NCBI GenBank assembly: GCA_030430205.1
Contig: JAUIGE010000030.1
Span: 1 to 64,000 of the forward strand
DNA length: 64,000 nt
DNA from: Bacteroidia bacterium
GTDB lineage: Bacteria; Bacteroidota; Bacteroidia; J057
Direction of reading: 5' to 3'
The translations under genes were made by a program, and so were the position numbers. Below, piece by piece: positions 25,060 through 39,720 of the stretch. Under the pieces are notes generated by a model. The model did not search any database, was not told the DNA's origin, and saw nothing but the letters and a program-made list of their open reading frames with translations. The first letter of the stretch is position 1. Each line of letters opens with the position of its first letter.

Positions 25060-25095
25060 TTCCCCCTCTCTTGCCAAAGCGCAATAGAGGGGGAA
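25060..25095 (+). terminator. GC-rich hairpin after the ABC exporter
   Basis: The arms TTCCCCCTCT and AGAGGGGGAA are perfectly complementary with a 16-base loop. There is no downstream T-run. The right arm is also the start of the palindrome-rich repeat element that follows, so it may be part of that element and not a dedicated terminator. Confidence 0.45.
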
Positions 25096-25349
25096 GTCTG
25101 CGGGGAATGGACGGGGTCCATTGAGGGGGGCGAAATGGGATTTCGGGTGTTTTCAACGATGAAATCGTTGGGGGATGCGGGACGGATTATAATCCGTCCC
25201 TACAGCTGGTCGAACGAAATTCGTTCGAAAGTAATAGCTGTTTTCAACGATGAAATCGTTGCGGGCGGTAGGGACGGATTACAATCCGTCCCGCATCTCA
25301 TCGAACGAAATTCGTTCGAAAAAAAATCCGGCTGGCTGCCGGAGGAAGA
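25086..25349. repeat. Palindrome-rich repeat element, left copy (2 units)
   Basis: After a conserved lead-in (GGGGAAGTCTGC, GGACGGGGTCCATTG, GGGATTTCGGGTG) come two 91-base units beginning at 25149 and 25240. Each unit holds three palindromes: CAACGATGAAATCGTTG, GACGGATTATAATCCGTC and TCGAACGAAATTCGTTCGA. The element ends with AAAATCCGGC, then GGCTGCCGGAGGAAGA, itself a small hairpin. The same element with six units lies at 39080-39720, at the other side of the CRISPR-Cas locus. The rest of 25350-25507 shows nothing that I recognise. Confidence 0.85.
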
Positions 25350-25507
25350 CATCATACCATGCGGCCCTGCCGCAGCCCATCGCAGCGAGCTAACGCAATA
25401 GCTCCCAAAAGCAATTGATCATCCATCCATTACCCCAACCCACGCCAGCGAAAACACGATTTCTCCGAAATCCATATCCCTCCCAAGCCCCCCCATCTGC
25501 AAATCCG

Positions 25508-25537
25508 CTCATCCTCTCAATCTGCACATCTCCCCGG
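25508..25537. repeat. Trailer motif beside CRISPR array 1
   Basis: The 23 bases beginning CTCATCCTCTCAATCTGCAC directly precede the degenerate end repeat of array 1. The same 23 bases precede the degenerate repeats at 26231 and 26389. It therefore marks the leader-distal (trailer) end of both arrays. Confidence 0.75.
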
Positions 25538-25930
25538 TCCTTGTTATGATGGACAGGTTACTCCGACCTTTCGTAGGAAATTGATGTCTATTGACAGCTC
25601 GGGTCTCAGTCCTTGTTATGATGGACAGGTCACTCCGACCGCAACCTTTCATTTTGACCACGGAGCCGAAACGGCCTGTCTCAGTCCTTGTTATGATGGA
25701 CAGGTCACTCCGACACACCTACTACTTTGAGGTAGAATTTGAAGCCGCAGTCTCAGTCCTTGTTATGATGGACAGGTCACTCCGACATGCACAGTAAAAG
25801 CAACTGCATCAGCTCAATGATGTCTCAGTCCTTGTTATGATGGACAGGTCACTCCGACTACGGAGCTGCATCTTTATCACCAAAGCAATATCTGTCTCAG
25901 TCCTTGTTATGATGGACAGGTCACTCCGAC
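25537..25930 (-). CRISPR. CRISPR array 1: five 37-bp repeats plus a degenerate end repeat
   Basis: Full 37-base repeats start at 25603, 25678, 25750, 25822 and 25894; on the plus strand each begins GTCTCAGTCCTTG and ends GGTCACTCCGAC. A truncated repeat with one substitution (GGTTACTCCGAC) lies at 25537-25567. Spacers are 35, 38, 35, 35 and 35 bases and all differ. The degenerate repeat marks the trailer at the left, so crRNAs read from the minus strand and would carry the 5' handle ACTGAGAC. No TAnnTTTG promoter is visible to the right of the array. It may be transcribed by read-through from array 2, or be dormant. Confidence 0.95.
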
Positions 25931-26096: not shown

Positions 26097-26412
26097 GGAA
26101 GAGGATGAGCTGATGTGCAAATTTGCTGATGAGCAGATGGAAGAGCCGGGCTTGGCTGTCTGCAAAGCATATCCTCAGACAGTCTTCCATCTGCTAATCC
26201 TCTCATCCTCTCAATCTGCACATCTTCCCCGTCCTTGTTATAATGGACAATGGCGGAAGAGGATGTGCTGATGAGCAGATTTGCTGATGAGCAGATGGAA
26301 GAACGCGGCTTTGCTGTCTGCAAAGTATATCCTCAGACAGTCTTCCATCTGCTAATCCTCTCATCCTCTCAATCTGCACATCTTCCCCGTCCTTGTTATA
26401 ATGGACAATGGC
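26097..26412. repeat. 158-bp tandem duplication of the CRISPR trailer
   Basis: Two copies (26097-26254 and 26255-26412) have an exact 158-base period. Each contains a long imperfect hairpin (arms AGCAGATGGAAGA and TCTTCCATCTGCT, inner arms CTGTCTG and CAGACAG), then the 23-base trailer motif and a piece of the array 2 repeat. The first copy's repeat piece (26231-26255) is therefore an orphan partial CRISPR repeat with no spacer. Confidence 0.85.
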
Positions 26413-28706
26413 GATGAGCTGGAGGTAGAGGCCTAGAAAAGGCTAGAGAAACTGTTTCAGTCCTTGTTATAATGGACAATGGCGATGAGCTGCTCCTATC
26501 GGAGCCGGTCGTCGATGGTAGAGCAAGTTTCAGTCCTTGTTATAATGGACAATGGCGATGAGCGTCGAAAGAGAAGATCCTATCGCTACATCAATGTTTC
26601 AGTCCTTGTTATAATGGACAATGGCGATGAGCTACAATCTTTATCGTATGAGCGGAAAAGACATTCGTTTCAGTCCTTGTTATAATGGACAATGGCGATG
26701 AGTATGAAGAGTTTTCTCAAGCGGTTCATGAAGTTATGTTTCAGTCCTTGTTATAATGGACAATGGCGATGAGCAGATCGAAGAAATCGATCTAAAAAAT
26801 GGGTATGTAGTTTCAGTCCTTGTTATAATGGACAATGGCGATGAGTGGACATCAAAAACTTAACAATCGTTAAGGCGACTAGTTTCAGTCCTTGTTATAA
26901 TGGACAATGGCGATGAGCATCATACCGCCACCCTGATCAGGTAATCTTGGAAAGTTTCAGTCCTTGTTATAATGGACAATGGCGATGAGTTTAACTCTTA
27001 AATACGAATCGTCATGACAAAAAAGTTTCAGTCCTTGTTATAATGGACAATGGCGATGAGTATCAGGAAATCACTGATAAGTATCAAGATTATAGGTTTC
27101 AGTCCTTGTTATAATGGACAATGGCGATGAGCTGACCCAACAAAGAGCATCCTCGTTGGCCAGTACATGTTTCAGTCCTTGTTATAATGGACAATGGCGA
27201 TGAGCAACTCGTGATTGGGCAAAAGCCAATGCTGTGCAGGTTTCAGTCCTTGTTATAATGGACAATGGCGATGAGCGGAGGAATGCCAAATCTGGATAGC
27301 ACACAAATCAGTTTCAGTCCTTGTTATAATGGACAATGGCGATGAGTCCCTAATAAGGGATTTGTTTGGGTAAAAACCAGGACAGTTTCAGTCCTTGTTA
27401 TAATGGACAATGGCGATGAGGATACACCATGGCACCCCGCCAAACGGTGAAAAAGTTTCAGTCCTTGTTATAATGGACAATGGCGATGAGATGGAGGAAG
27501 ACGTGTACAACTCAATAATGAAAGTTTCAGTCCTTGTTATAATGGACAATGGCGATGAGCCTGGCAATAAAACTCCGCGAAGCGGGGTTAGTAAGTTTCA
27601 GTCCTTGTTATAATGGACAATGGCGATGAGCCTCTGTGCAGCAGGGATGAAAATTCCTTGTGGTGGAATGTTTCAGTCCTTGTTATAATGGACAATGGCG
27701 ATGAGTGTTGGCTACAGAAGGTTGAGGGATTCCTTACCAGTTTCAGTCCTTGTTATAATGGACAATGGCGATGAGATTGAAAGATTAAGGAACCGTCCTA
27801 AATTTCTCTTCGTTTCAGTCCTTGTTATAATGGACAATGGCGATGAGTCTTTAATATGAATCTTGGAGTAGCACACCGAAATGTTTCAGTCCTTGTTATA
27901 ATGGACAATGGCGATGAGATCGCGGACGAGGCTGTTCAGGGTTTTGCACAGCCGGTTTCAGTCCTTGTTATAATGGACAATGGCGATGAGTCTGTCCTAT
28001 GAAACCCGTTTAGCCGCGATGCAAGTTTCAGTCCTTGTTATAATGGACAATGGCGATGAGCAGCAAAGTGTATGACCAGCAAGTAAGACAGATAAAGGTT
28101 TCAGTCCTTGTTATAATGGACAATGGCGATGAGTCTCCAAACTAGGCAATGAAGTTCAAGTAACGGTTTCAGTCCTTGTTATAATGGACAATGGCGATGA
28201 GGGGTCCAGACGAACCGGATGAGATCACCCCCTGGGGTTTCAGTCCTTGTTATAATGGACAATGGCGATGAGCCAAATTGCACGCTATGTTTTTGAAAGT
28301 TTTAAGTTGGAGTTTCAGTCCTTGTTATAATGGACAATGGCGATGAGCTTGGCGTCCAACCAGCTGACCTGAAATCACACCTCGTTTCAGTCCTTGTTAT
28401 AATGGACAATGGCGATGAGCCTGAATGACAGCCAAAAAAGCACCGTACTGGAAAGTTTCAGTCCTTGTTATAATGGACAATGGCGATGAGAAGACATGCT
28501 TCAGAGTATTGAAACAAGTCAGACAGAGTTTCAGTCCTTGTTATAATGGACAATGGCGATGAGACTGCTACAGCAACCTGAGTGACAATGCACTTATTGG
28601 TTTCAGTCCTTGTTATAATGGACAATGGCGATGAGGAGTAAACATAACCACCGAAGAAGCTCAAGGTATAGTTTCAGTCCTTGTTATAATGGACAATGGC
28701 GATGAG
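26389..28706 (-). CRISPR. CRISPR array 2: 32 full 36-bp repeats plus a degenerate end repeat
   Basis: I count 32 identical-looking 36-base repeats from 26454-26489 to 28671-28706, with spacings of about 69-75 bases and 32 distinct spacers of about 33-39 bases. On the plus strand each repeat begins GTTTCAGTCCTTG and ends GGCGATGAG. A 5'-truncated repeat at 26389-26418 marks the trailer, so the leader is on the right next to cas1. crRNAs come from the minus strand, where the repeat ends ACTGAAAC, the typical 8-nt type III crRNA handle. The repeat core (CAGTCCTTGTTAT, then ATGGACA) is shared with array 1. Confidence 0.98.
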
Positions 28707-29050
28707 AGGTCGGGATCTTAAGTGTCTGAGTATCAGGTCCAGTGCATGTTCGATAATGAACACTTCTCCCTTTTTTGAGACACAAATCCTCGTTTTTGAC
28801 TTTGTCATCAATTTTTTGCATGGAAATGAGCTGTAAATATCCCGTTTTTTTGATTGAGAAGACAAAGATACAGAAAACATTTTACTAACTCAAAATATAT
28901 TTTGCCGTAAATAAACATGAGAAATCCGGTTAAGTAGCGTTGCCGGATGCCGTTTTCAGAATGGGTAAACACCCTCAATCTACCCACTGACTGCTCACCC
29001 AACCATTGCTGGCGGCCTTTGCTCAAGTTTAATTTTTAATCCAATGTAGT
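28707..29050 (-). promoter_or_regulatory. CRISPR leader of array 2
   Basis: This AT-rich 344-base region separates the newest repeat of array 2 from the divergently read cas1. It contains the leftward promoter described separately, so about 150 bases of leader RNA would precede the first repeat. No clear TAnnTTTG promoter for cas1 was found on the plus strand. Short open frames here run into the repeats and are not credible genes. Confidence 0.8.
28863..28894 (-). promoter_or_regulatory. Promoter for CRISPR array transcription
   Basis: On the minus strand TTTG (28894-28891) is separated by exactly 20 bases from TATCTTTG (28870-28863). This matches the Bacteroidetes primary sigma-factor consensus TTTG / TAnnTTTG. 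The predicted start is near 28857, reading leftwards into array 2. The same -7 octamer TATCTTTG precedes the cas6-csm operon. Confidence 0.8.
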
Positions 29051-30100
29051 ATGCATTTGGTCATTAATTCTTACGGCTGCAGTTTGAGGAAGAAGAAGGG
29101 ACGCTTCAAGCTGAAAAATGACAAGGGGGAAACCCTTTTTAGTCCCGAGCAGATCGAGGCCATCACGCTTGCGCGGGCCTGTATGATCACCACAGATGCC
29201 ATCATGCTGGCGATTGAGTATGATATTCCCATTTACCTGATAGAGCGAAATGGGAAACCTGTGGGGCGCTTTTGGTCCCATCACTACGGCTCTATCGCGA
29301 CCATCCGTCGCCACCAGCTGGAGTGGAGCCAGACGCCTGCCGCCGCCCGTTGGATGCGTGTGCAGGTATATGAAAAGCTGATGGCGCAGTCGGCCCTGCT
29401 GGGGAAGCTTGCTCAGCAACGGCCCTCCGCTGCCAGAGAGTTGGTCGCTTCATCTGTCTTGCTAAAAGAGCAGGCTGCAACGCTCGAAAATTGGCCGGAA
29501 GAGCCTATTTCCTTACAGGCAGATCGCCTGAGAGGATTTGAAGGCATCAACTCCCGCCGGTATTTTCAGGCCCTCAACCTGGCCCTGCCCAAGCGTTTTC
29601 GCTTTGATGTGCGCAGCCGTCGCCCCGCCGCCGATCCTTTTAATGCCTTGCTCAATTACCTCTATGGCATGCTCTACCAGCTGGTGGAGCACAGCATTGT
29701 GACCGCGGGACTTGAGCCGACCATCGGTATATTGCATACCGATTATTACCGTCGCCCTGCCCTTGCTTTTGACCTGATCGAAGCCCTCCGTCCCTGGGTG
29801 GATGGCCTTGCGGTCCAACTCTGCATCAGCAGGCGTTTTAAGCAGCTGCATACCCGTATCCGGGGAGAAGGGCTCTGGCTCAGTGAAGAGGGACGAAAGC
29901 TGGCGATTCCGGCTTTTGATGAGGTTTTTGGCCTGCCGCTGGAGCAGGAGAAAGAAGAGGAAGGAATGGAAGTTGCTTTTTCCCGTAAGGAACGGGCGCG
30001 CCGAAAGTGCAAACAACTTGCTCAATTTCTCTTAAAAGACTGGCCGCGTGATTCTCTGGGATCACGCTTTTTATTTGGTCTCCAAAGTAAGGTGGCCTAA
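29051..30100 (+). CDS. cas1: CRISPR-associated endonuclease Cas1
   Basis: This 349-residue integrase inserts new spacers at the leader end of the array. Family marks visible are the N-terminal beta domain (MHLVINSYGCSLRKKKGRFK), ITTDAIMLAIEYDIPIYLIE, and the C-terminal helical domain with DPFNALLNYLYGMLY, then a His/Asp-bearing PTIGILHTDYYRRPALAFDL segment in the metal-binding region. Length is normal and no lesion is seen. Its usual partner Cas2 is present only as an N-terminal stub 12 bases downstream. The gene is noticeably richer in G+C than csm2, csm3 and the two effector candidates, so adaptation and effector modules may have different histories. Confidence 0.95.
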   Translation: MHLVINSYGCSLRKKKGRFKLKNDKGETLFSPEQIEAITLARACMITTDAIMLAIEYDIPIYLIERNGKPVGRFWSHHYGSIATIRRHQLEWSQTPAAARWMRVQVYEKLMAQSALLGKLAQQRPSAARELVASSVLLKEQAATLENWPEEPISLQADRLRGFEGINSRRYFQALNLALPKRFRFDVRSRRPAADPFNALLNYLYGMLYQLVEHSIVTAGLEPTIGILHTDYYRRPALAFDLIEALRPWVDGLAVQLCISRRFKQLHTRIRGEGLWLSEEGRKLAIPAFDEVFGLPLEQEKEEEGMEVAFSRKERARRKCKQLAQFLLKDWPRDSLGSRFLFGLQSKVA

Positions 30101-30112
30101 AACTGGCAAATC

Positions 30113-30601
30113 ATGTTAAGATTGGTTGCCTACGATATCTCCAAGGATCGGCTGGGCGACAAAGCCTACAAAAAAGGCTGGGTCTATACCCGCTATGCGG
30201 ATGACATCACCTTTTCTTCAGACAAAAACTTCAGCCCTAAGCAGATGGACAAAATCCGGGGCCTGATAAGACAGGCAGGATTTGCCGTCAATGAGAAAAA
30301 GGTCCATCTCTACCACAAGGACGATCCACCGGAGGTGACGGGCCTGGTCCTGCTCGATCCCAGGCCCGATGTATCTCCCGCTTTTTTGAAGCACCTCAAA
30401 GCCGACCTCAAAGCCCTCAAACTGCTCAGCGAACAGCGGATGTTGCGACGGGGCATCGTGATGGCCCTACCCCTCAACAAACTCCGGCAGTCCATCCGGG
30501 GGCAGATCAATTTTGTAGGCATGATCCGAGGCTGGGAAGATGAGTTGTATCGTCGCCTGATGCAGAAGCTGCAGCGCCTGAGCGCTGTGGTGAGTTATTG
30601 A
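30113..30601 (+). pseudogene. Cas2 N-terminus fused to C-terminal part of a CRISPR-associated reverse transcriptase
   Basis: The 162-residue ORF starts as Cas2 (MLRLVAYDISKDRLGDKA, with the metal-binding Asp of YDIS). At about residue 19 it switches to reverse transcriptase: KKGWVYTRYADDITFSS with the YADD catalytic box at 28-31. Then come a GFAVNEKKVHLY segment, EVTGLVLLD, and a thumb-like region RGQINFVGMIRGWEDELY. Most of Cas2 and the RT fingers and first palm motifs, including the first catalytic Asp, are missing. The simplest reading is a deletion that joined cas2 and a downstream RT gene in frame. The product cannot be a complete Cas2 or RT. It stays open over 162 codons, so a recent event or a retained role is possible. 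Confidence 0.85.
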
Positions 30602-30717: not shown

Positions 30718-31560
30718 CTAACCTCTGTATCCCATATCTTTTAATTTGAGGAGATTGAGGAGATTGCCATAAATTTGTGATTTGACATTAGCATAGCTAA
30801 GTAGGTTTTTTCTTGCAGGCATAATTAATTCTGGATTGATATAGCCAGGCCCAAAGTAAAAAACGCATATCTCGGCAGGCATTTTATTGATATAATCGAT
30901 CACCAATGATCGTTTTTTACCTTCTTCTTTATCTTTCTCTGATTTGTCAGCTGATTTTTGCTCAAAAAATGTTTTGTCTTCATCACTGATAAGAATCAAA
31001 TCATACTTTTTATAATTGATATCTTTTACACCACTGCCACTTACTGGCTGAAAATCTGGTCTCTTTTTGATTACTTTGCTTAGATCAAAGTATTTTTCCA
31101 ACTCATTTTCTGACCTGTCTTCATTTACTTTTTTATAGGCAAGAACCAAAATCCTTGCTTCCTGGAATAGCTTTAATTCGATATGGGCAAGATCAACATA
31201 ATGCGCAATGGCTTCAGCGTTGCCGTTCACTATTTCTTTTAACTCTTTTTCTACCAACTCTCGGGAAGTAACAATGAGCTTTTGGTAACCACCATAAAAT
31301 CCTAACATCCCAGTTAATATGGCAATGATAATGGCTACTCCATATGTATTCAATCGACTTTCAATCATTAATCCAATCAGATTAAAGGTATCATCTAGCG
31401 TCGAGGCGTCGGTATTGGCATCGATCTGTATCGTTTGTGATTTCACTGTGAGGAAGTCTTTGCAAAGAAAAACCCCCAACAAAAAAATACCGACTCCAAG
31501 GGCAAGCGATATACTTGCCACAATTATCCAGTGGTTATTCTTCTTCTGTAACATATACAT
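30718..31560 (-). CDS. Two-helix membrane protein with C-terminal Rossmann-like domain; candidate type III CRISPR effector
   Basis: The 280-residue product has transmembrane helices at about 10-33 and 72-91 flanking a 40-residue extracytoplasmic loop. A short helical linker follows, then a soluble domain (134-280) with strand RILVLAY, strand KKYDLILISDED, strand EICVFYFG (234-237) and a C-terminal helix containing RKNLLSYANVKSQIY. This domain matches, element by element, the C-terminal domain of the upstream gene, which it overlaps by 26 bases. It is the last gene of the cas6-csm operon. No Csm6, CARF or nuclease signature is recognisable. I infer that it may perturb the membrane when signalled, as other type III membrane effectors do. 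I do not recognise the family. Confidence 0.7.
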   Translation of the reverse strand: MYMLQKKNNHWIIVASISLALGVGIFLLGVFLCKDFLTVKSQTIQIDANTDASTLDDTFNLIGLMIESRLNTYGVAIIIAILTGMLGFYGGYQKLIVTSRELVEKELKEIVNGNAEAIAHYVDLAHIELKLFQEARILVLAYKKVNEDRSENELEKYFDLSKVIKKRPDFQPVSGSGVKDINYKKYDLILISDEDKTFFEQKSADKSEKDKEEGKKRSLVIDYINKMPAEICVFYFGPGYINPELIMPARKNLLSYANVKSQIYGNLLNLLKLKDMGYRG

Positions 31561-32263
31561 CTATAAAATTTTGCATTTCTTTGATCCTTGCGTGTAAAGC
31601 AAAAGGCGAATTGGCTGCGTGGACTTTGTTTCTGTTTTTGGCAACGAGGTCAATTATTCCACCAAAATGAATAATGAATTTGTTTGGTGGAAGAGCTTTG
31701 ATAGTTTTTTCCATTAATTGATAATGGGCAAGGTTTTCCCCCTCATAAGTAATAATAGAATAGCCATGCTCGTCTTTTCCTGTTTTTTTGCCTCTTAGAC
31801 TTTGATTGTCAAGAAGAATAAATTCAATTTCTTTCCATGGGATTAGTTGGGGATCAAATTCGAGTGAGGAGATAATTTTTGGAAATGGGTTATTGATTCC
31901 CATTTTCTTCAATAAATGCTCAATCGCATCCTTTTCGTGTGGCTTGGAAATAACCCATATAGGTTTTCTTGGAACTTCATTCACAAAATCGTCATCTTCA
32001 ATTTCATTCAGAATGCTCAAAGACTGCACAAAAAGTTGATTTTTTTCTAATAAATAAGTCTCTTTTCCTAAATTACCCAAACGAAAGTCTTTCTCTATTT
32101 CTGTAAACCTTACATAGTTCATAAATATTTGAGGATAAGGATTTGCTTCATTCCCGGATGGTTTTAATTTGCTTAAAATCCTATCGCATGTTTCCTTTAG
32201 GTCTCCCGTTTTAAGAAGAGAGATACATTCTTGTATGGTTTTTTTATGTAAAATAGCTTTCAT
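31535..32263 (-). CDS. EAD11-like domain protein with Rossmann-like C-terminus; partner of the membrane protein
   Basis: Residues 1-92 form an all-helical domain with the pattern TIQECISLLKTGDLKE, then RFTEIEKDFRLGNLGKETY and LLEKNQLFVQSLSILNEI. This is very like effector-associated domain 11, an adaptor that brings conflict-system effectors together by homotypic contacts. The C-terminal half (100-242) has PIWVISKP, EFILLDN, NKFIIHFGG (HFGG at 199-202) and RNKVHAANSPFALHARI, parallel to the membrane protein downstream. It starts 10 bases after csm5 and overlaps the membrane gene. I infer that it is a sensor or adaptor for that protein. It has no catalytic motif that I can name. A search against EAD and CARF/SAVED profiles would decide its family. 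Confidence 0.7.
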   Translation of the reverse strand: MKAILHKKTIQECISLLKTGDLKETCDRILSKLKPSGNEANPYPQIFMNYVRFTEIEKDFRLGNLGKETYLLEKNQLFVQSLSILNEIEDDDFVNEVPRKPIWVISKPHEKDAIEHLLKKMGINNPFPKIISSLEFDPQLIPWKEIEFILLDNQSLRGKKTGKDEHGYSIITYEGENLAHYQLMEKTIKALPPNKFIIHFGGIIDLVAKNRNKVHAANSPFALHARIKEMQNFIDVYVTEEE

Positions 32264-32273
32264 GGGAATTAAG

Positions 32274-33569
32274 TTATTTTAGAAGTTTTAGGTTTATCCA
32301 GCCCAAAGGCACATTCCCAGGCTTCAAAACAGTCCTTGTCACCGGAAAATGATCCTTTGACATCCCTACCTCATGCACTACTCTCCGAAAACGAAGAAAA
32401 GCCTGCACACCTTCAGGATGATGATCCTCCGCATAGTGGTAGAAAGCCAGGGCAAGAGAGTTATCAAAAATTGTTTTCCCCAATCCAATCCGCATAAATA
32501 TTTCTCCTTCATCTGCACGATCATAGAGGCGGGTATAAAAATTAATCAAATTGTTATGTGCAGCCCGGTCAGGCATTTCTTCTGCAAATTCCAGGCTGTC
32601 CAGTTCAAAGCCGATGCAGGCTTTGGAGAAGGCATATATACTCTCCAGTAGCCCATCTATTCCCTCATTCCGAAGAAATTGAAGCTCTTTTGCCTGCAGA
32701 GAATCAGCACGTAAACCTATTTCAAAACTGCTATCTAACCCTTCGGAAATGGCTTCACGGGGTTGGGGAATTGTGGCCTGATTGGCTCTGCCAAACCTAT
32801 TGCCCCCCAAGGGGGCAAGTCGAATCCTTTCTGCACGACAAAAAATCATATCACTGGCAGAAAACCTTTGGGTATCGCTCACACGGATATGCTGACTGTC
32901 AGGTGCCTGCTTGCGGTCGTTCACTTTGCCAAACAAAGATTCCTCTGGAAGAATCCTACGTAATTTATTGCGAACTTCTCTTTGGGCATCGCGCAAAAGT
33001 TGGGATTCTCTTTTACTTGGTTGAATTCGTTTTTTCTTTTTTGCTCTTATCGGAGCTATTTCTCCCAGGATTTCATCGCATTCCATAACTATTTTGTAAG
33101 CATTTCGCATCATTTGCTGGCCCTCTGAAGTCTTATTGAGCCAGCGATAGAGTAAAGCTGTCCGAATGGCGCCTTTGATGCTGCTGCCAGGGATAAAGGG
33201 CCGTCCGGCTGTTTTGAGTATAGGATGGACTTCAATATTCTGTGTTGCTCCATAACCTTCATTTCGAATGGATAACTTTGTAAGACTCGCCACATCCATT
33301 CTCAACTGATTTTCAATAAAGCTTTTCAATCTCAGTTTTGAGGTGTTGTTTTCAACCGTTTCGAAGGAAGCTGAAAACTCCCCCATTTTATTTTGTTTCT
33401 CAAGGGCATCCACTAATAAGTTTTGATCGATATAATGTATCCATTTCTCATCCTGGCTTACAACAAAATCAGTGTATGGTGACAGTATATCAGCATGGTC
33501 CGAGTAAATTGAAACGGGTGTCTCTGTATGAAGCTGGAGTTTGTATGTCGTGATTTTGCTCATAATCAA
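32274..33569 (-). CDS. csm5: Type III-A CRISPR RAMP protein Csm5
   Basis: This 431-residue protein caps the 3' end of the crRNA in the Csm complex. The RAMP signature is GRPFIPGSSIKGAIRTALLY (about 122-141), and the N-terminal strand is KLQLHTETPVSIYS. A basic insertion (KKKKRIQPSKRESQ) lies near 185-200. Its start overlaps the end of csm4 by 4 bases (ATGA type), indicating translational coupling. Another in-frame Met two codons later is also possible. Length is in the usual range for the family. Confidence 0.9.
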   Translation of the reverse strand: MIMSKITTYKLQLHTETPVSIYSDHADILSPYTDFVVSQDEKWIHYIDQNLLVDALEKQNKMGEFSASFETVENNTSKLRLKSFIENQLRMDVASLTKLSIRNEGYGATQNIEVHPILKTAGRPFIPGSSIKGAIRTALLYRWLNKTSEGQQMMRNAYKIVMECDEILGEIAPIRAKKKKRIQPSKRESQLLRDAQREVRNKLRRILPEESLFGKVNDRKQAPDSQHIRVSDTQRFSASDMIFCRAERIRLAPLGGNRFGRANQATIPQPREAISEGLDSSFEIGLRADSLQAKELQFLRNEGIDGLLESIYAFSKACIGFELDSLEFAEEMPDRAAHNNLINFYTRLYDRADEGEIFMRIGLGKTIFDNSLALAFYHYAEDHHPEGVQAFLRFRRVVHEVGMSKDHFPVTRTVLKPGNVPLGWINLKLLK

Positions 33570-34588
33570 AAGGGTAATGAAAAGACCAGTCCGTTCCTGA
33601 TTACGCTGGAAGTGTGCTGGTCCGGGTGAACATCTTCTAATTTTCCTAAGATGGGTTGGGTGAGGATAGCCCCTTCTTCTATCATGCGAACTTGTTTTCG
33701 ATGTTTCTCATTTTTGCCGAACCTTCCTAATGATCCCCCGCCCCTGATGATTAGGCGATATTTTTCACACTGAGCAAATTCTTTCGGGCTTTTGGGAATT
33801 CCGAGAGAGAGGCTACATTGTCTTCCGGTATTTTGCAAGTTGGGAAAATAAAAATCAGAAGCATCTTTTTCTTCAATGGCCGCTATTTGTCCACAACCAC
33901 TTCTTCTCTCTCCTCCTATTCCTTCATCTGCAAGCAGCCGAAGGCAAGCTTTCCATTTGTTAAGGGATTCGGTATCCAAAGATTCATTTAATAAAAAATA
34001 CAAATGGGTCTGGAGCTTCGTATTTCCAATTTCCAAATGCTGCAATTGCATGTTTACCTGGTGGTAATAGACCCCTTCCTGGCTTATTTCATGTACCTTC
34101 ACCTTTGGATAGGTAACCTCTTCTACAAGTGAACTTTCTGCTAATTGTCTGACGTGTGATCTGGATTGTATGCCTAAAGAGCTTAACTCTTCCTTCGTCA
34201 GTAGATGTTTGTTACCAATGATATGGAAGTCTGTCAAATGATCTTCTTTGGGTGCAGCATTCCATACGCCAACAGAAAAGAATTCAATGGCTTTCGCTGC
34301 CTTGTAATTTCCCTCATTTTGGTAATGGAAACTGATTGGTTTAGGTAAAAAGAAAACCCGGCTTCCATTGCTGGATTCTATACAATGGAATACAGAAGAA
34401 ATACTAATTTTCTGATCCTTAAAGCTTTTTACAAACTTGTCAGTTTCATTGGGAAACAGTTTGGAATAGGTGTTTACTAATGCAGAAAAAAGGGTGTCTG
34501 AGTGAATCCATTGGTGGGTTGTTTCCAGGGTGTTTTTTCCCAGATGAAATTGATTGGAAAGATTGGTTTTCAGGATGATCACTTTCAT
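33566..34588 (-). CDS. csm4: Type III-A CRISPR RAMP protein Csm4
   Basis: This 340-residue subunit binds the 5' handle of the crRNA and contacts Cas10. Family marks are the N-terminal strand with HQWIHSDTLFSALVNTY, the central EGIGGERRSGCGQI-like segment (DEGIGGERRSGCG), and the C-terminal GGSLGRFGKNEKHRKQ followed by RNGLVFSLPF. It overlaps csm3 upstream and csm5 downstream by 4 bases each, so the three are coupled. No unusual features seen. Confidence 0.92.
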   Translation of the reverse strand: MKVIILKTNLSNQFHLGKNTLETTHQWIHSDTLFSALVNTYSKLFPNETDKFVKSFKDQKISISSVFHCIESSNGSRVFFLPKPISFHYQNEGNYKAAKAIEFFSVGVWNAAPKEDHLTDFHIIGNKHLLTKEELSSLGIQSRSHVRQLAESSLVEEVTYPKVKVHEISQEGVYYHQVNMQLQHLEIGNTKLQTHLYFLLNESLDTESLNKWKACLRLLADEGIGGERRSGCGQIAAIEEKDASDFYFPNLQNTGRQCSLSLGIPKSPKEFAQCEKYRLIIRGGGSLGRFGKNEKHRKQVRMIEEGAILTQPILGKLEDVHPDQHTSSVIRNGLVFSLPF

Positions 34589-35340
34589 GAGAAATAGGAA
34601 TTGTAGGGATTATTGGGGATAGGCTGCCAGTCAACGATTTCTTCATTTTCATAATCTGTGATCAACTTTTGTTTAAAATCTACTTCTTCGAAATGTATTT
34701 TTCCATATCCCCTTGATCCATGACCTCCCAAATAATCATCCATAATTAAGCGCATGGCTTTTATCAAAAGTTTAAGGTGCTTGTCGGTTTTTTGGTCATC
34801 ATACATATCATAAATCATTTCCATGTTGAATCGAGCTTCGGCAGGGACACGTTCCAATTGACGAGGGTGTTTTGCTGTACCAGTCAGCCTATCAATAGTA
34901 TTTTCCCATTTTGCTTCAGTGAACTCAGTTTCTAAAACTTCGCGATCAGTAAAAGTTTTGGCAAAAGCCTGGGTGTCAAGATCTGCATCTCTTACTATCA
35001 GTCGGGTTACCAGCATATCATCTTTTTTCTTTTCTCCTTTGTCCTCTTCGCTTGACGCATCACCCCCGGCAGAATACCCAAAAAGCTCTTTTAGGGTAGG
35101 AGAATCCTTATTCACTGAATTACTTCCTTCTTCCCTAGCCAGTAAACTTCGTAACTTTCCCTTTAGTGAACTTCCAGGTATAAAAGGGATTTCGCCCCGC
35201 GCAGTTTTAATTACATTGAGGTCAATACCTCCGATATCCAATGCAGTTTTGCTACCCCCGATGTGTAGACCTGTCAATACCTTGATTATGGCTGTTATTC
35301 GAATTTTTCCTATGAAGTGAATTTCTTTTTTTGTTTCCAT
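34585..35340 (-). CDS. csm3: Type III-A CRISPR RAMP protein Csm3 (target RNA nuclease subunit)
   Basis: Csm3 forms the backbone of the complex and cuts target RNA every six bases. The catalytic aspartate corresponds to Asp40 in IGGIDLNVIKT. The RAMP loop is PFIPGSSLKGKLRSLL, and GGHGSRGYGKIHF lies near the C-terminus. An acidic/lysine insertion (SSEEDKGEKKKDD) near 100 is longer than in short family members. The catalytic residue is intact, so target RNA cleavage should be retained, which normally switches off cyclic oligoadenylate synthesis after the target is destroyed. Confidence 0.95.
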   Translation of the reverse strand: METKKEIHFIGKIRITAIIKVLTGLHIGGSKTALDIGGIDLNVIKTARGEIPFIPGSSLKGKLRSLLAREEGSNSVNKDSPTLKELFGYSAGGDASSEEDKGEKKKDDMLVTRLIVRDADLDTQAFAKTFTDREVLETEFTEAKWENTIDRLTGTAKHPRQLERVPAEARFNMEMIYDMYDDQKTDKHLKLLIKAMRLIMDDYLGGHGSRGYGKIHFEEVDFKQKLITDYENEEIVDWQPIPNNPYNSYFS

Positions 35341-35345
35341 CTTTA

Positions 35346-35768
35346 TTATTTTTTGGGGTAGTGAAATTTTTGATATCCAACCATTGCTTCCATAATGGTT
35401 TGCAGGCTTTTAATTTGGTAAGCTGCCTTTGATGAATCGTGATCAATTTGTTTTATCAGGTCGCTGATGAGTTCTGTAACTATTTGTGCATCCCAATTTG
35501 TCTGTCGACCTGTTATATAGGCAATTTTTGGTCGAAGCAATTTTAGCTTTGTTATATCCTGGCTTCCCAATCGTTTTATTCTGGAAAAAATATTTCTCAA
35601 TTGGTTAGAGGTAATATCTTTACCTTTTTCTTTCATTAGGGAATCTATTTTATTGATGATTCGATCAATTTGATCAGGAGAAAGGGGTTCATTGCTATTT
35701 TCAATCTCAAGAAGATATTGATAATCATTCTTAAAAAATGTTTTAGCCTTTTCTAATGGAGTTGTCAT
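35346..35768 (-). CDS. csm2: Type III-A CRISPR small subunit Csm2
   Basis: This 140-residue helical protein is the small subunit of the Csm complex. Recognisable parts are TSNQLRNIFSRIK, LLRPKIAYITGRQ and the C-terminal IMEAMVGYQKFHY. It sits between cas10 (28 bases upstream) and csm3 (5 bases downstream). Its presence, with Csm5, sets the subtype to III-A and not III-B. Base composition is AT-rich like csm3 and csm4. Confidence 0.95.
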   Translation of the reverse strand: MTTPLEKAKTFFKNDYQYLLEIENSNEPLSPDQIDRIINKIDSLMKEKGKDITSNQLRNIFSRIKRLGSQDITKLKLLRPKIAYITGRQTNWDAQIVTELISDLIKQIDHDSSKAAYQIKSLQTIMEAMVGYQKFHYPKK

Positions 35769-35796: not shown

Positions 35797-38280
35797 TTAT
35801 TTTCTACTCATAAATTCAGCCCATCTTACTCCTACAGCTATGAGGAGAGGTGAGCCAATGGATTTTCCCTCTGGGTGGGGTTGAAGATTTTTTTTGAATA
35901 GGTTTTCATACATACTCACGATTTCGTTCTCAACGAATTCCTTGTTTCCTTTTTTTACCTCTCTTAAATAATGGTATAAGCGCCATAAACGTGGCAGATA
36001 AATACTCCTCTGATTTTGGATATCTTTCATAACCTTGATATAACCAGAAATACTTTTCTGCACTTTCCATAGTATAGCTCGACTTTCCCGATCCTCAGGC
36101 TTTGTCACCAGATAATATAAATTAGATCGGAGCTCCCTTGCCTTGTCAAAATCATCCCATGTAAGAACTTGGCCGAAAACCTGAATACAATTTTTTCCAC
36201 TGGCCTTCGCCACCCCCAAAGCCTCCTCCGCCAATACCGCAAAGCGGCTCACCGGAAACTTAGGTCCCACCATCACCACACCCGCGGATAGCGTCAATGT
36301 GCCACCCGTAAAGCGATCAAACTCATCCCTGATCAGCTTTCCAAACTCTAATATCAAATCCCAGGCACCCACCATCAGGCAGTCGTCACCACCGGAGAAG
36401 ATGACGTAGATGTTGTCGCGGAAGCTTTCTTCAGCAGAGTCAAGCAGGTTTTTGTAGTGTGCCAGTTTTTCGTTCTCTTCGCAATAGCTTTTTGTAAACC
36501 AGTCTATCAACTTAGTGTCCAGTAATACATTGATATGTCCTTCAAAAAACCATTCCATGGCGCGAGATAGAGCCGCAGTGTGGAGGATAGAGCTTTTCCC
36601 GTTTTCATCTCGTATGCCTGAGCGGAAACTATTGCCAAGGTTGTCAATATCCATTTTGAGGACCCCCAATTTTGGGGTTCCGGTGCGTTTGCCAGCAAAC
36701 TCTGCCAGATACCCAAAGGAGATGATAAAATCCTCCTGAGGATCATCTCTTTCCGACTTTTCAAGGCCTTTATTGTATTTCTGGAATCCCGCTATCAGTT
36801 CTTTGTTTTTGCTATTTTCAAGCAAATGAGGTTTCCATGTAGGCAGGTCTTTTACCAGGTAGGTGACTGGTTTGGGCACAAAATCCTTTTCATCATTTGA
36901 CCAGGAGGACAGCATGAGTTTGGATTTGTTGATTAGGACACTGCATGCCTGCTCATTGGAAGACCAAACCAGTCGTCTGTGAAATCCGGTATAGGGATCG
37001 GGAATAGTTTTTTCTGACAAATCCTCCTCTGCATCCTCGTCTCTATAAAATCGTTCCTTTTTGGTCAGTTGCCATTCCGGTTGAAGAGAAAGCCCAAATC
37101 CTTTATAGTTATGCAAATTACTTGCATAATCATCCATTTTTTTTCCTTGGGGTCCTTTGGTTACATTTCGGTAATATGCCTTTTCCAGCTTTCGCCTGTC
37201 TGTGAAACTGTAGGGGGACAGGGGATCAAATATTTGATGAAACAGTAGTTCACTTTTAGATTCCAAATCTGATTCTGACTGTTTATCCTTTTCTTGTGAT
37301 AAATCAAAAAATTGAAGCCGATGTTCATTTAATGCTGTATCCAGCGCTTTCCATCTTTCAGCGAAGCCATTGCGAAATTGCTCTTTTGCCAGCGGAACAA
37401 AAGCCAGGATTACCTGCACGACTTCAGGGATAGAAATATCTGCTCCTCGCATATTCAGAGGTTCAAATGCAAATTCTTTTCTACACCGCAGTAACACCTT
37501 TTCCATAGATCGGGGAGCAATTAGATAGAATGAGCCCCCTCCATTATAGAGTAGGTTTGCAGGACTAACTTTCAATTCTTTAAGCAAGTAATCCACTGCC
37601 ATAAATGCCATCGCCTGGATGCGGAGTGAACGCGCCTTCAAAGCTTTCGCAGCCCCTTTACTTTCTGTGTCAAAAATGAATTCCTGTATGCCAGAGATAT
37701 CACCTTTGATAAAGAGCATCCCATCCTCATCTGCCTCATTCAATAAAGAACAAACAGATGCAGCAGCAGTAAGTCTTGCATAATCAAAAAGGCTGTTGTG
37801 CCCATTAATGACGATCTGAGAGGCAAAAAACCTAATCAGAGATAACAAAGCCTCATCATGCCTGAAATGGTTTGAAGATTCAGAAATAGAATTTCCGGAG
37901 ATGCTCGTCAGTTTGGCAGAAAGCTGGTTTAACAAATCTTGAGCTGAAGTATCTCCACTTGCCGGAAATAAAAACCGCTGGCCCTGCTGGAGATCATCGG
38001 GCAAAGTGGCAACGGCAGTCGTTAAATCCGGCTTCAATCGCCTGACAGGCTTTCCCTCATCATCCGTTTCCCACAAATAAGCAAAGGGAGAAGGCATATC
38101 AGTCCGGCTCGCCTCTACCCGGGCTCCCGGACAAACCGCCTCCTGCGCTTCCCGAATTACCCCCTGATGCTTTTGCCAACAAGCTTCCACATCTACCCCC
38201 AGGCAAGGCATCACCATCTCCTCCGGCCAAATACTCTTCAGCAGCGCCGTAACAAATATTTCGTGTGTCTCTTTATTCAT
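35797..38280 (-). CDS. cas10: Cas10/Csm1 large subunit, GGDD present, HD nuclease signature absent
   Basis: This 827-residue protein is the signalling subunit of the type III-A complex. The first palm domain starts at FIKGDISGIQEFIFDT. The second palm carries GGDD at 630-633 (IFSGGDD), the active site that makes cyclic oligoadenylates from ATP. It is followed by GTLTLSAGVVMV and EEALGVAKASGKN. The N-terminal 170 residues lack the H-D-x-G-K signature of the single-stranded DNase, and only a degenerate FRHDEALLSLI can be seen. No zinc-finger cysteines are obvious. DNase activity is therefore probably lost, and immunity should depend on cyclic nucleotide signalling. The start overlaps the end of cas6 by 4 bases. 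Confidence 0.95.
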   Translation of the reverse strand: MNKETHEIFVTALLKSIWPEEMVMPCLGVDVEACWQKHQGVIREAQEAVCPGARVEASRTDMPSPFAYLWETDDEGKPVRRLKPDLTTAVATLPDDLQQGQRFLFPASGDTSAQDLLNQLSAKLTSISGNSISESSNHFRHDEALLSLIRFFASQIVINGHNSLFDYARLTAAASVCSLLNEADEDGMLFIKGDISGIQEFIFDTESKGAAKALKARSLRIQAMAFMAVDYLLKELKVSPANLLYNGGGSFYLIAPRSMEKVLLRCRKEFAFEPLNMRGADISIPEVVQVILAFVPLAKEQFRNGFAERWKALDTALNEHRLQFFDLSQEKDKQSESDLESKSELLFHQIFDPLSPYSFTDRRKLEKAYYRNVTKGPQGKKMDDYASNLHNYKGFGLSLQPEWQLTKKERFYRDEDAEEDLSEKTIPDPYTGFHRRLVWSSNEQACSVLINKSKLMLSSWSNDEKDFVPKPVTYLVKDLPTWKPHLLENSKNKELIAGFQKYNKGLEKSERDDPQEDFIISFGYLAEFAGKRTGTPKLGVLKMDIDNLGNSFRSGIRDENGKSSILHTAALSRAMEWFFEGHINVLLDTKLIDWFTKSYCEENEKLAHYKNLLDSAEESFRDNIYVIFSGGDDCLMVGAWDLILEFGKLIRDEFDRFTGGTLTLSAGVVMVGPKFPVSRFAVLAEEALGVAKASGKNCIQVFGQVLTWDDFDKARELRSNLYYLVTKPEDRESRAILWKVQKSISGYIKVMKDIQNQRSIYLPRLWRLYHYLREVKKGNKEFVENEIVSMYENLFKKNLQPHPEGKSIGSPLLIAVGVRWAEFMSRK

Positions 38281-38966
38281 GCGTCAATTTTTCTAATGTT
38301 TCCGAAACCTCTGCTCACGCCCTTGCCCAATCCGATATGATCGGGCAGGAGGACATTGGTGCGAAAGACAAAGTTGAAGGCGAAGACCCGCACGCCTTTA
38401 TAATTGATGTGCTGAGTGGGGCGCATTTGGGTGATTTCCAGCTGTATCTTTTCGGCTATGTGCCAGTTTACCGCCTTGGCGAAGCTGAGGATATTGCCGA
38501 TCAGTTTGGGTTCGAGGAAGTAGATGATGTCGCGCAGACTTTCGAGTTCCTGGTATTCGCGGTAGTTGTGCTGGTTGAGCGCCTGCCAGTTGCGGATGCT
38601 GTACAGCTGGGACATATCATCTGTGATGCCCAAAGGATATTTTTTGACCTCATAGGCTTCCAAAGCCAATTCATTCTTGTGATCCCGCAATTTCAATTGC
38701 GGAAATTTGTCGTCAGCGACCAAGTCCTGCCCTGGCTGAAATGCTTCTCCAAAACAGATCATGATTGGCATTTGGTTTTCCCGCTTGTACTGCACGCGAG
38801 GATAATGATATTGAGAGCTTCCGTCAGGGAAGTGATTATGAAACCAGGCAAAGTCTTCCTGATCCAAAGGGATTTTTTCCAAAAAGGCCCCTCTAAAGGC
38901 GCTGACCTCGCTTTCATAGATAGAAGGAGAGAAAATGGCTTTGAGGATAGGTAAGGTAGTAGGCAT
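38277..38966 (-). CDS. cas6: Cas6 crRNA-processing endoribonuclease
   Basis: The 229-residue protein is the first gene of the effector operon and cuts the repeat part of the array transcript to release crRNAs. The C-terminus has the glycine-rich loop GLGKGVSRGFGNIRKI typical of Cas6. The N-terminus runs TLPILKAIFSPSIYESEV. Several histidines (WFHNHFP, WHIAEKI) are candidates for catalysis. The cut should leave the 8-nt handle ACTGAAAC on array 2 crRNAs. Assignment rests on the C-terminal loop and position. A strong -7 box lies about 28 bases upstream. Confidence 0.88.
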   Translation of the reverse strand: MPTTLPILKAIFSPSIYESEVSAFRGAFLEKIPLDQEDFAWFHNHFPDGSSQYHYPRVQYKRENQMPIMICFGEAFQPGQDLVADDKFPQLKLRDHKNELALEAYEVKKYPLGITDDMSQLYSIRNWQALNQHNYREYQELESLRDIIYFLEPKLIGNILSFAKAVNWHIAEKIQLEITQMRPTQHINYKGVRVFAFNFVFRTNVLLPDHIGLGKGVSRGFGNIRKIDA

Positions 38967-39079: not shown

Positions 39080-39720
39080 GCCTCCCCCGATTGGGGGAAG
39101 TCTGCTGGGAATGGACGGGGTCCATTGGTGGGGGCGAAATGGGATTTCGGGTGTTTTCAACGATGAAATCGTTGGGAGATGCGGGACGGATTATAATCCG
39201 TCCCTACAGCTGGTCGAACGAAATTCGTTCGGAAGGAATAGCTGTTTTTAACGATGAAATCGTTGGGAGATGGGGGGACGGATTATAATCCGTCCCTACA
39301 GCTGGTCGAACGAAATTCGTTCGAAAGTAATAGCTGTTTTCAACGATGAAATCGTTGGGAGATGCGGGACGGATTATAATCCGTCCCTACAGCTGGTCGA
39401 ACGAAATTCGTTCGGAAGTAATAGCTGTTTTTAACGATGGAATCGTTGGGAGATGCGGGACGGATTATAATCCGTCCCTACAGCTGGTCGAACGAAATTC
39501 GTTCGAAAGTAATAGCTGTTTTTAACGATGGAATCGTTGGGAGATGGGGGGACGGATTATAATCCGTCCCTACAGCTAGTCGAACGAAATTCGTTCGGAA
39601 GTAATAGCTGTTTTTAACGATGGAATCGTTGGGAGATGGGGGGACGGATTATAATCCGTCCCTACAGCTGGTCGAACGAAATTCGTTCGAAAAAAAATCC
39701 GGCGGGCTGCCGGAGGAAGA
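39080..39720. repeat. Palindrome-rich repeat element, right copy (6 units)
   Basis: The lead-in (GGGGAAGTCTGC, GGACGGGGTCCATTG, GGGATTTCGGGTG) and the end (AAAATCCGGC, CTGCCGGAGGAAGA) match the left copy at 25086-25349. Between them are six units starting at 39153, 39244, 39336, 39427, 39518 and 39610, with periods of 91 or 92 bases. Each carries the same three palindromes around GATGAAATC or GATGGAATC, GGATTATAATCC and CGAACGAAATTCGTTCG. Open frames through this block are repeat-derived and not genes. Confidence 0.88.

Follow-up and report, generated by a model that had tools for sequence, protein, structure and literature searches.

A Cas2 start fused to a reverse transcriptase end beside cas1: probable scar of a disabled spacer-acquisition module in a Bacteroidia type III-A CRISPR locus

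Directly after an intact cas1 gene, the genome of a Bacteroidia bacterium carries a short open reading frame that begins as a Cas2 protein and ends as a reverse transcriptase (RT). The frame raises the question of how two incomplete genes came to share one reading frame, and whether the CRISPR locus around them can still acquire spacers. It lies near the middle of the 64,000-nucleotide stretch of DNA analysed here (contig JAUIGE010000030.1 of assembly GCA_030430205.1, positions 1 to 64,000; the window). An earlier note on this DNA had described the fusion, had attributed it to a deletion that removed most of cas2 and the first part of the RT, and had suggested that the locus once acquired RNA-derived spacers and may now be unable to adapt.

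The chimeric frame and its locus

The chimera is a real feature of the assembled sequence, separated from the stop codon of cas1 by 12 nt (Table 1). Its beginning is the first strand of Cas2 with the conserved aspartate (YDI). In a scan with a 13-residue matrix of Cas2 N-termini, drawn from 10 Cas2 proteins of which one row was shortened manually to fit, position 30113 took rank 1 among all 77,328 positions without a stop in the window's six-frame translation, and it kept that rank with matrices of 14, 17 and 20 residues. The scan rules out a chance match as the source of the Cas2 start. The full ferredoxin-like domain of Cas2, some 90 residues that dimerise and bridge Cas1, is absent; about 14 residues of it remain.

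Table 1. Features of the CRISPR locus, in window coordinates
Feature	Position	Strand	Basis or detail
CRISPR array 1	25531..25930		6 related repeats, 5 spacers
CRISPR array 2	26383..28706		33 repeats (26383 to 28671), 32 spacers
Probable leader/promoter region	28707..29050		344 bases, 61% AT, between array 2 and cas1
cas1, intact	29051..30100	+	349 aa; PF01867 E 4.1e-66
cas2N-RTC chimeric ORF	30113-30601	+	162 aa, ATG start, no internal stops
cas2 remnant, codons 1-14 (first strand, YDIS motif)	30113..30154	+	Cas2 matrix rank; alignment with relatives' Cas2
C-terminal part of a retron-like, cas1-linked RT, in frame with the cas2 remnant	30155..30601	+	Identity to G010 RT; RT tree; structure model
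EAD11-domain and NARF-domain genes, end of csm operon	30718..32263	-	PF19964 just under, PF20299 over cut-off
csm2, csm3, csm4, csm5 (type III-A effector genes)	32274..35768	-	Profile matches
cas10/csm1 with GGDD	35797..38280	-	TIGR02578 E 7e-102; GGDD read in translation
cas6	38277..38966	-	PF17262 E 2.4e-34, PF17955 E 1.8e-16

The remainder of the frame is RT. Retron RT models of PADLOC match the chimera (best E 4.5e-25), as does Pfam RVT_1 (E 1.4e-5, under the curated cut-off), with residues 22-79 aligned to profile positions 146-204 of 205. Over about 136 residues the RT part is some 50% identical to an intact RT of a genome of the same family, G010. It holds the end of the motif B helix, the YADD hairpin, the VTG motif and the thumb, or roughly the last 40% of an RT, and the alignment confirms that YADD and VTG are both present; the fingers, the catalytic aspartate of motif A and motif B are missing. 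The in-frame fusion described in the earlier note is thus confirmed by the Cas2 matrix, the RT profiles and the alignments.

Alignment with relatives, which the earlier note had proposed for this purpose, also places the two breakpoints: Cas2 extends to about codon 14, and RT likeness begins at about residue 199 of the 345 of the intact RT. The note's own estimate, RT from about residue 19, has to be moved back to about codon 14. Leucine 14 of the chimera aligns without a gap to an RT leucine that is invariant in all eight relatives, and it is equally compatible with Cas2, where 4 of the 10 matrix proteins have leucine at that position. The next residue is glycine in the chimera as against arginine in nine of the ten matrix proteins and in all five RT-linked Cas2 proteins. 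Because leucine 14 fits both parents and position 15 is not arginine, the join lies at about codon 14.

The missing pieces were sought nearby and in the rest of the genome. Relaxed tblastn found neither an RT N-terminus nor a Cas2 C-terminus in the window; an RT start hidden upstream of cas1 (28707..29050 included) and a cas2 end hidden downstream of the chimera were both rejected on empty searches. Besides the chimera, RT and Cas2 profiles returned from the organism's own genome only a retron XIII-type RT, a weak match on contig C75 (E 0.0096) and a cas2 on contig C2. None of the candidates for a complementing copy survived scrutiny: the cas2 of C2 adjoins another cas1, and the RT of contig C13 is typed by PADLOC as retron XIII and is absent from the rows of the RT tree. 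An HRDC-like ORF and formylglycine-enzyme-like targets at the RT of contig C60 point to a diversity-generating element. At that locus (L002 822-3104) the HRDC-like ORF and two formylglycine-enzyme-like genes flank the RT, and we take the element to be probably a diversity-generating retroelement. A search for a second cas2 or RT, as the earlier note had advised, therefore yields a cas2 beside another cas1, a retron XIII-type RT and the weak C75 match. The complete set of Cas1, Cas2 and RT of an RT-using adaptation module is not present, cas2 and RT both being incomplete.

The surroundings are those of a type III-A (Csm) system, with Cas10/Csm1, Csm2-Csm5, Cas6 and two arrays as in known examples, from which the locus differs in having no complete cas2 and in the third-position G+C of cas10, csm3 and csm5, which is below that of cas1 and the RT part (0.33-0.44 against 0.61-0.69). 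Two neighbouring non-CRISPR genes have values of 0.62 and 0.65, and the adaptation genes may differ in history from the effector genes. The cas1 gene is intact, as the earlier note had it: the profile match is strong (Table 1), and E164, H229 and E244, which we take to be the metal ligands, are invariant in a three-row Cas1 alignment.

The note's count of 32 spacers in array 2 is right. Of its 33 repeats 32 are identical, which fits a recently active array; the first, low-coordinate repeat has 4 mismatches, and a further degenerate repeat with 9 mismatches stands at 26225. Since the degenerate repeat is at the low-coordinate end, the leader probably lies on the cas1 side, and the stretch between array 2 and cas1 is probably that leader. 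All 40 copies of the repeat core in the genome (at most 2 mismatches) fall inside the window, and a second locus with the same repeats was rejected at that threshold. Searches for targets of the array 2 spacers gave one marginal match in phages (E 0.7), largely over a repeat, and no match in plasmids. Both arrays have a 63-base trailer in common (25493-25555, 26187-26249 and 26345-26407; 92% identical), and a 158-base stretch is duplicated at the end of array 2. Direct repeats of 234 bases, 92% identical, flank the whole CRISPR locus (25089-25321 and 39093-39326), with more units of about 91 bases, partly self-complementary, at 39152-39692; the flanking repeats could have carried or shuffled the locus.

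Two further genes end the csm operon. The EAD11 gene (31535-32263, minus strand) lies between csm5 and the NARF gene, and tblastn of the fetched loci matched copies of this window only. The NARF gene (30718-31560, minus strand) is predicted from its sequence to encode membrane helices, and PADLOC Mem_03 matches it weakly (E 0.014). Its domain (PF20299) recurs in type III-A loci, over the cut-off in the window (E 5.9e-6) and in the genome G007 (L159 7249-7989, minus strand; E 5.6e-8) and under it in L053 (4393-5214, plus strand; E 0.009). The window gene is a possible candidate for a signal-gated membrane effector, and it resembles Cap1 in general layout, as far as the accessible part of PMC12642688 describes that protein.

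Relatives of the RT part and of Cas1

A search with the chimeric protein gave matches in 13 of 100 genomes including its own, that is, in 12 of 99 relatives. The earlier note had held that close relatives with the same compact fusion under purifying selection would speak against a simple deletion; a second fusion was looked for in these 99 relatives and none was found, all 12 matches lying in frames of at least 307 aa and none reaching the first 4 residues. Nor did a single-protein scan of genome contigs find relatives or a second copy of the fusion, a scan of viral contigs found none, and in plasmids six records matched, with distant RTs only. In two of the 12 matching relatives, G010 and G007, a complete RT gene immediately precedes cas1, and cas2 comes next.

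The arrangement in these two genomes recurs elsewhere. A second contig scan used an alignment of the G010 and G007 RTs as its query, found 207 relatives and kept the best 80 with flanks of at most 6 kb; its patterns come from the half of the RT that the chimera lacks, so that it is blind to copies of the fusion. Screened with three Cas1 proteins as queries, a screen that a distant or more remotely placed cas1 could escape, eight of the 80 best RT loci carry cas1 (L049, L050, L051, L053, L054, L057, L064 and L065, where L049 is the G010 locus, L050 the G007 locus, and L064 and L065 are near copies). The RT stands directly upstream of cas1 in all eight, cas2 follows cas1 in the seven whose contig continues, and cas6 just precedes the RT in several. 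In L051 (2802-3686) and L054 (8150-9154) a DUF1016/YhcG PDDEXK nuclease gene lies between cas1 and cas2. Wider draws, which overlap each other and both take in the organism's own genome, had an RT match at the chosen E-values in 50 of 395 genomes of the class and 22 of 395 of the phylum; among the loci fetched from them (at most 30 per search), only G007 and the window itself had cas1 as a neighbour. G010 has two tandem cas1 genes, an RT-less one lying upstream of the RT-cas1-cas2 set with no cas2 directly after it. In this tandem region (L157 436-6732, minus strand) four genes separate the two: one that weakly matches a Csm6-type CARF (E 0.0065), one of unknown kind, a putAbiC gene and the RT.

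In a tree made with a quick method from 54 rows (the nine RTs of interest plus the 45 unlinked RTs that scored best in a pool of 149 RT ORFs on the loci, where one RT may occur more than once), the window fragment and the eight cas1-linked RTs, mostly from Bacteroidota, fall on one side of a branch with SH-aLRT 99. The nearest RT to the fragment is that of G010 (support 97), and the fragment's end branch is the shorter of the two (0.49, sister 1.08); the window fragment has residues in 39% of the alignment columns, and the tree has flagged long branches. The fragment matches the cas1-linked retron-like RTs in this grouping and in its YADD and VTG motifs, and differs from them in that it lies downstream of cas1, whereas theirs lie upstream in all eight loci.

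The Cas1 proteins give a less uniform picture. A more careful tree was built from 24 of the 33 rows, leaving out seven distant Cas1 proteins, L057, and L136, which nearly duplicates L135; several of its long branches carry a flag. In it window Cas1 and the RT-linked Cas1 of G010 form a pair with moderate support (90/91), and the quick 33-row tree has the same pairing (SH-aLRT 95). A pairing with the second, RT-less cas1 of G010 was not rejected (p-AU 0.34). A single clade of window Cas1 and seven RT-linked Cas1 proteins, L057 being left out, was rejected (p-AU 0.0035). Because the RT lineage holds together and one Cas1 clade is rejected, the modules have been reshuffled, with changes of Cas1 partner.

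Retron-like RTs in CRISPR loci are as such already known. A 2019 survey by Toro and colleagues reportedly bears on CRISPR RTs. The accessible parts of the literature call the CRISPR RT of Haliscomenobacter hydrossis retron-like, note that its close relatives carry the VTG motif, and consider a recent retrotransposition possible (PMC5541045); the same case is named in PMC6013744, and PMC11014452 cites a retron-related lineage as one of at least three sources from which CRISPR RTs arose. The VTG motif and a cas1-linked lineage are common to these RTs and the window RT part, which differs from them in comprising only the last 40% or so of an RT, in lying downstream of cas1 and in being fused to a cas2 start. 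The RT-Cas1 and Cas6-RT-Cas1 fusions of type III systems likewise join an RT to an adaptation gene; their partner is Cas1 and their RT group II intron-like (PMC5541045 and PMC11014452, in the parts accessible), whereas the window RT is fused to Cas2 and neither half is complete. In those same parts, the fusions with shown acquisition from RNA belong to the group II intron-like lineage (PMC5541045, PMC11014452). As the window RT is of the small retron-like kind and not group II intron-like, the suggestion that the locus once acquired RNA-derived spacers stands as plausible but unproven. Among the literature matches listed, where most subscription journals were outside reach, there was no occurrence of a Cas2-RT, RT-Cas2 or Cas1-Cas2-RT fusion and none of the phrase "cas2 fusion", and a search of the same reach for Saprospiraceae, CRISPR, reverse transcriptase and cas1 together found no literature.

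Origin and age of the junction

The gene order of the relatives bears directly on how the fusion arose. The earlier note had derived it from cas1-cas2-RT by a single deletion, a derivation that does not fit the RT lying upstream of cas1 in all eight related loci when the order in the window is cas1 followed by the chimera. With the RT first and cas2 last in the module, one deletion cannot join the start of cas2 to the end of the RT; the junction calls for a head-to-tail join or a circle, unless cas2 preceded the RT in the ancestor. We favour the reading, at a probability of roughly 60%, that the chimera is what a rearrangement left of a spacer-acquisition module, now disabled, and that the event was probably recent. 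The ancestral module would have had the order RT-cas1-cas2, and its end (cas2) would have come up against its start (RT) through head-to-tail duplication or through excision as a circle and reinsertion, the rest of the module being lost after the junction had formed. As a relic of duplication, likeness between the sequence upstream of cas1 and that after the RT was looked for and none was found. A genome-wide repeat just after the chimera, with three matches in the genome including this one, is an unlikely cause of the rearrangement.

A simple deletion could still account for the junction if cas2 stood before the RT in an ancestor, whether within a single cas1-cas2-RT module or because a cas1-cas2 module preceded an RT-cas1-cas2 one; we regard this origin as rather unlikely. 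The tandem cas1 genes of G010 make a two-module ancestor conceivable, and the unrejected pairing of window Cas1 with the upstream G010 gene points the same way; yet cas2 lies upstream of this RT in none of the eight loci, that upstream gene lacks an adjoining cas2, window Cas1 groups with the RT-linked cas1, and the two-module form would still need a second loss, that of the downstream cas1-cas2. The difference concerns the step of origin only, the product being equally disabled. It is very unlikely that the chimera is an artefact of assembly or sequencing, produced by the joining of two contigs or the collapse of a tandem duplication. The genome is a draft of 80 contigs, but searches of the rest of the assembly, rated 100% complete, did not recover the lost parts of cas2 and the RT; moreover, the two parents meet in frame and with no gap in either protein alignment, and the nearer known contig end is about 30 kb away from the locus, the window covering bases 1-64000 of contig C31.

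The state of the RT part bears on the age of the favoured rearrangement. The chimera keeps all 14 columns that are invariant in the eight intact RTs and four of the six that are kept in seven of the eight; in a leave-one-out control, intact RTs kept from 14 of 14 to 14 of 16 invariant columns. Identity between window and G010 is 50.4% for the RT part and 38.2% for Cas1, and this excess of RT over Cas1 is the largest positive one of 36 pairs, the others ranging from -16.2 to +7.1. The G+C of the three codon positions of the RT part is 0.59, 0.34 and 0.69, the third resembling that of neighbouring non-CRISPR genes. When substitutions alone were simulated, 52% of trials left a frame of the chimera's length open at 0.05 changes per site, and 10% did so at 0.2. 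Because a remnant with an open frame and its invariant residues shows no decay, the event was probably recent; a recent event and selection account equally well for the open frame, the kept residues, the G+C and the identical repeats. The choice lies between a recent event, constraint on the fragment, and an RT part derived from a module more closely related to the G010 module than was the source of the resident cas1.

Function and consequences for adaptation

Structure models indicate what is left of the RT. In the model of an intact RT (pLDDT 86), strand 130-136, which we take to be motif A with one of the three catalytic aspartates, precedes helix 193-206 and the YADD hairpin at 209-221; the chimera begins inside the helix that corresponds to 193-206. 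The model of the chimera itself (pLDDT 81, pTM 0.53), built on 14 short or partial sequences, has a folded RT part and unstructured residues 1-10 (mean pLDDT 47). Its best Foldseek match is the RT of retron Ec86 (E 1.8e-4, with a TM of only 0.31), and no Cas2 is among the best 50 of 610 matches. Lacking the Cas2 fold and RT motifs A and B, the chimera is expected to support neither spacer integration by Cas1 nor reverse transcription. The suspicion voiced in the earlier note that the locus cannot adapt gains support from this expectation that its product is neither a working Cas2 nor a working RT. According to the accessible part of PMC9048733, every system tested depends on the Cas1-Cas2 complex for adaptation, and knocking out cas1 or cas2 made adaptation inert; acquisition is therefore expected to be off, while interference may go on.

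The good state of the RT part would also suit a chimera that works, with the palm hairpin and thumb retained to bind nucleic acid or Cas1, as an accessory or regulator of Cas1 that uses the start of cas2. The open frame, the unbroken set of invariant residues, a conservation that is high relative to Cas1 and the predicted fold of the RT part all agree with such a role, which we nevertheless consider improbable: the known parental functions of catalysis and bridging are lost, and the fusion is known from one genome, with no second copy in the 99 relatives, the single-protein contig scan or the viral scan. More specifically, a recently born adaptation protein could have replaced Cas2 beside Cas1, so that acquisition is kept or regulated without Cas2 or reverse transcription; we give this possibility very little weight. 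Cas2 and RTs both have ferredoxin-like cores, and the boldest proposal, a chimeric mini-palm in which the aspartate of Cas2 strand 1 replaces that of RT motif A to restore a three-aspartate active site, starts from the fact that both strands end in aspartate and precede the helix and YADD hairpin. The predicted structure of the chimera does not support such a palm, there being no strand in the poorly modelled residues 1-10, and motif B and the fingers are gone, which makes the proposal extremely unlikely.

On the favoured reading of a disabled module, naive spacer acquisition would be off, and the Cas6-Csm-Cas10 system should still be able to use the stored 32 and 5 spacers. Judged from the gene content, acquisition has probably stopped, and the stored memory and the interference machinery look intact. 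If this reading holds, the locus is a natural test case of an RT-bearing CRISPR module that has lost acquisition and kept interference, and its memory is frozen. If the chimera were to work after all, Cas2 would be dispensable where it has been thought essential. For the retron-like lineage of CRISPR RTs, known from one case in two early surveys, the comparison adds eight loci, all of the same gene order, whose Cas1 partners have been reshuffled, and these make the acquisition of RNA-derived spacers by retron-like RTs a testable question.
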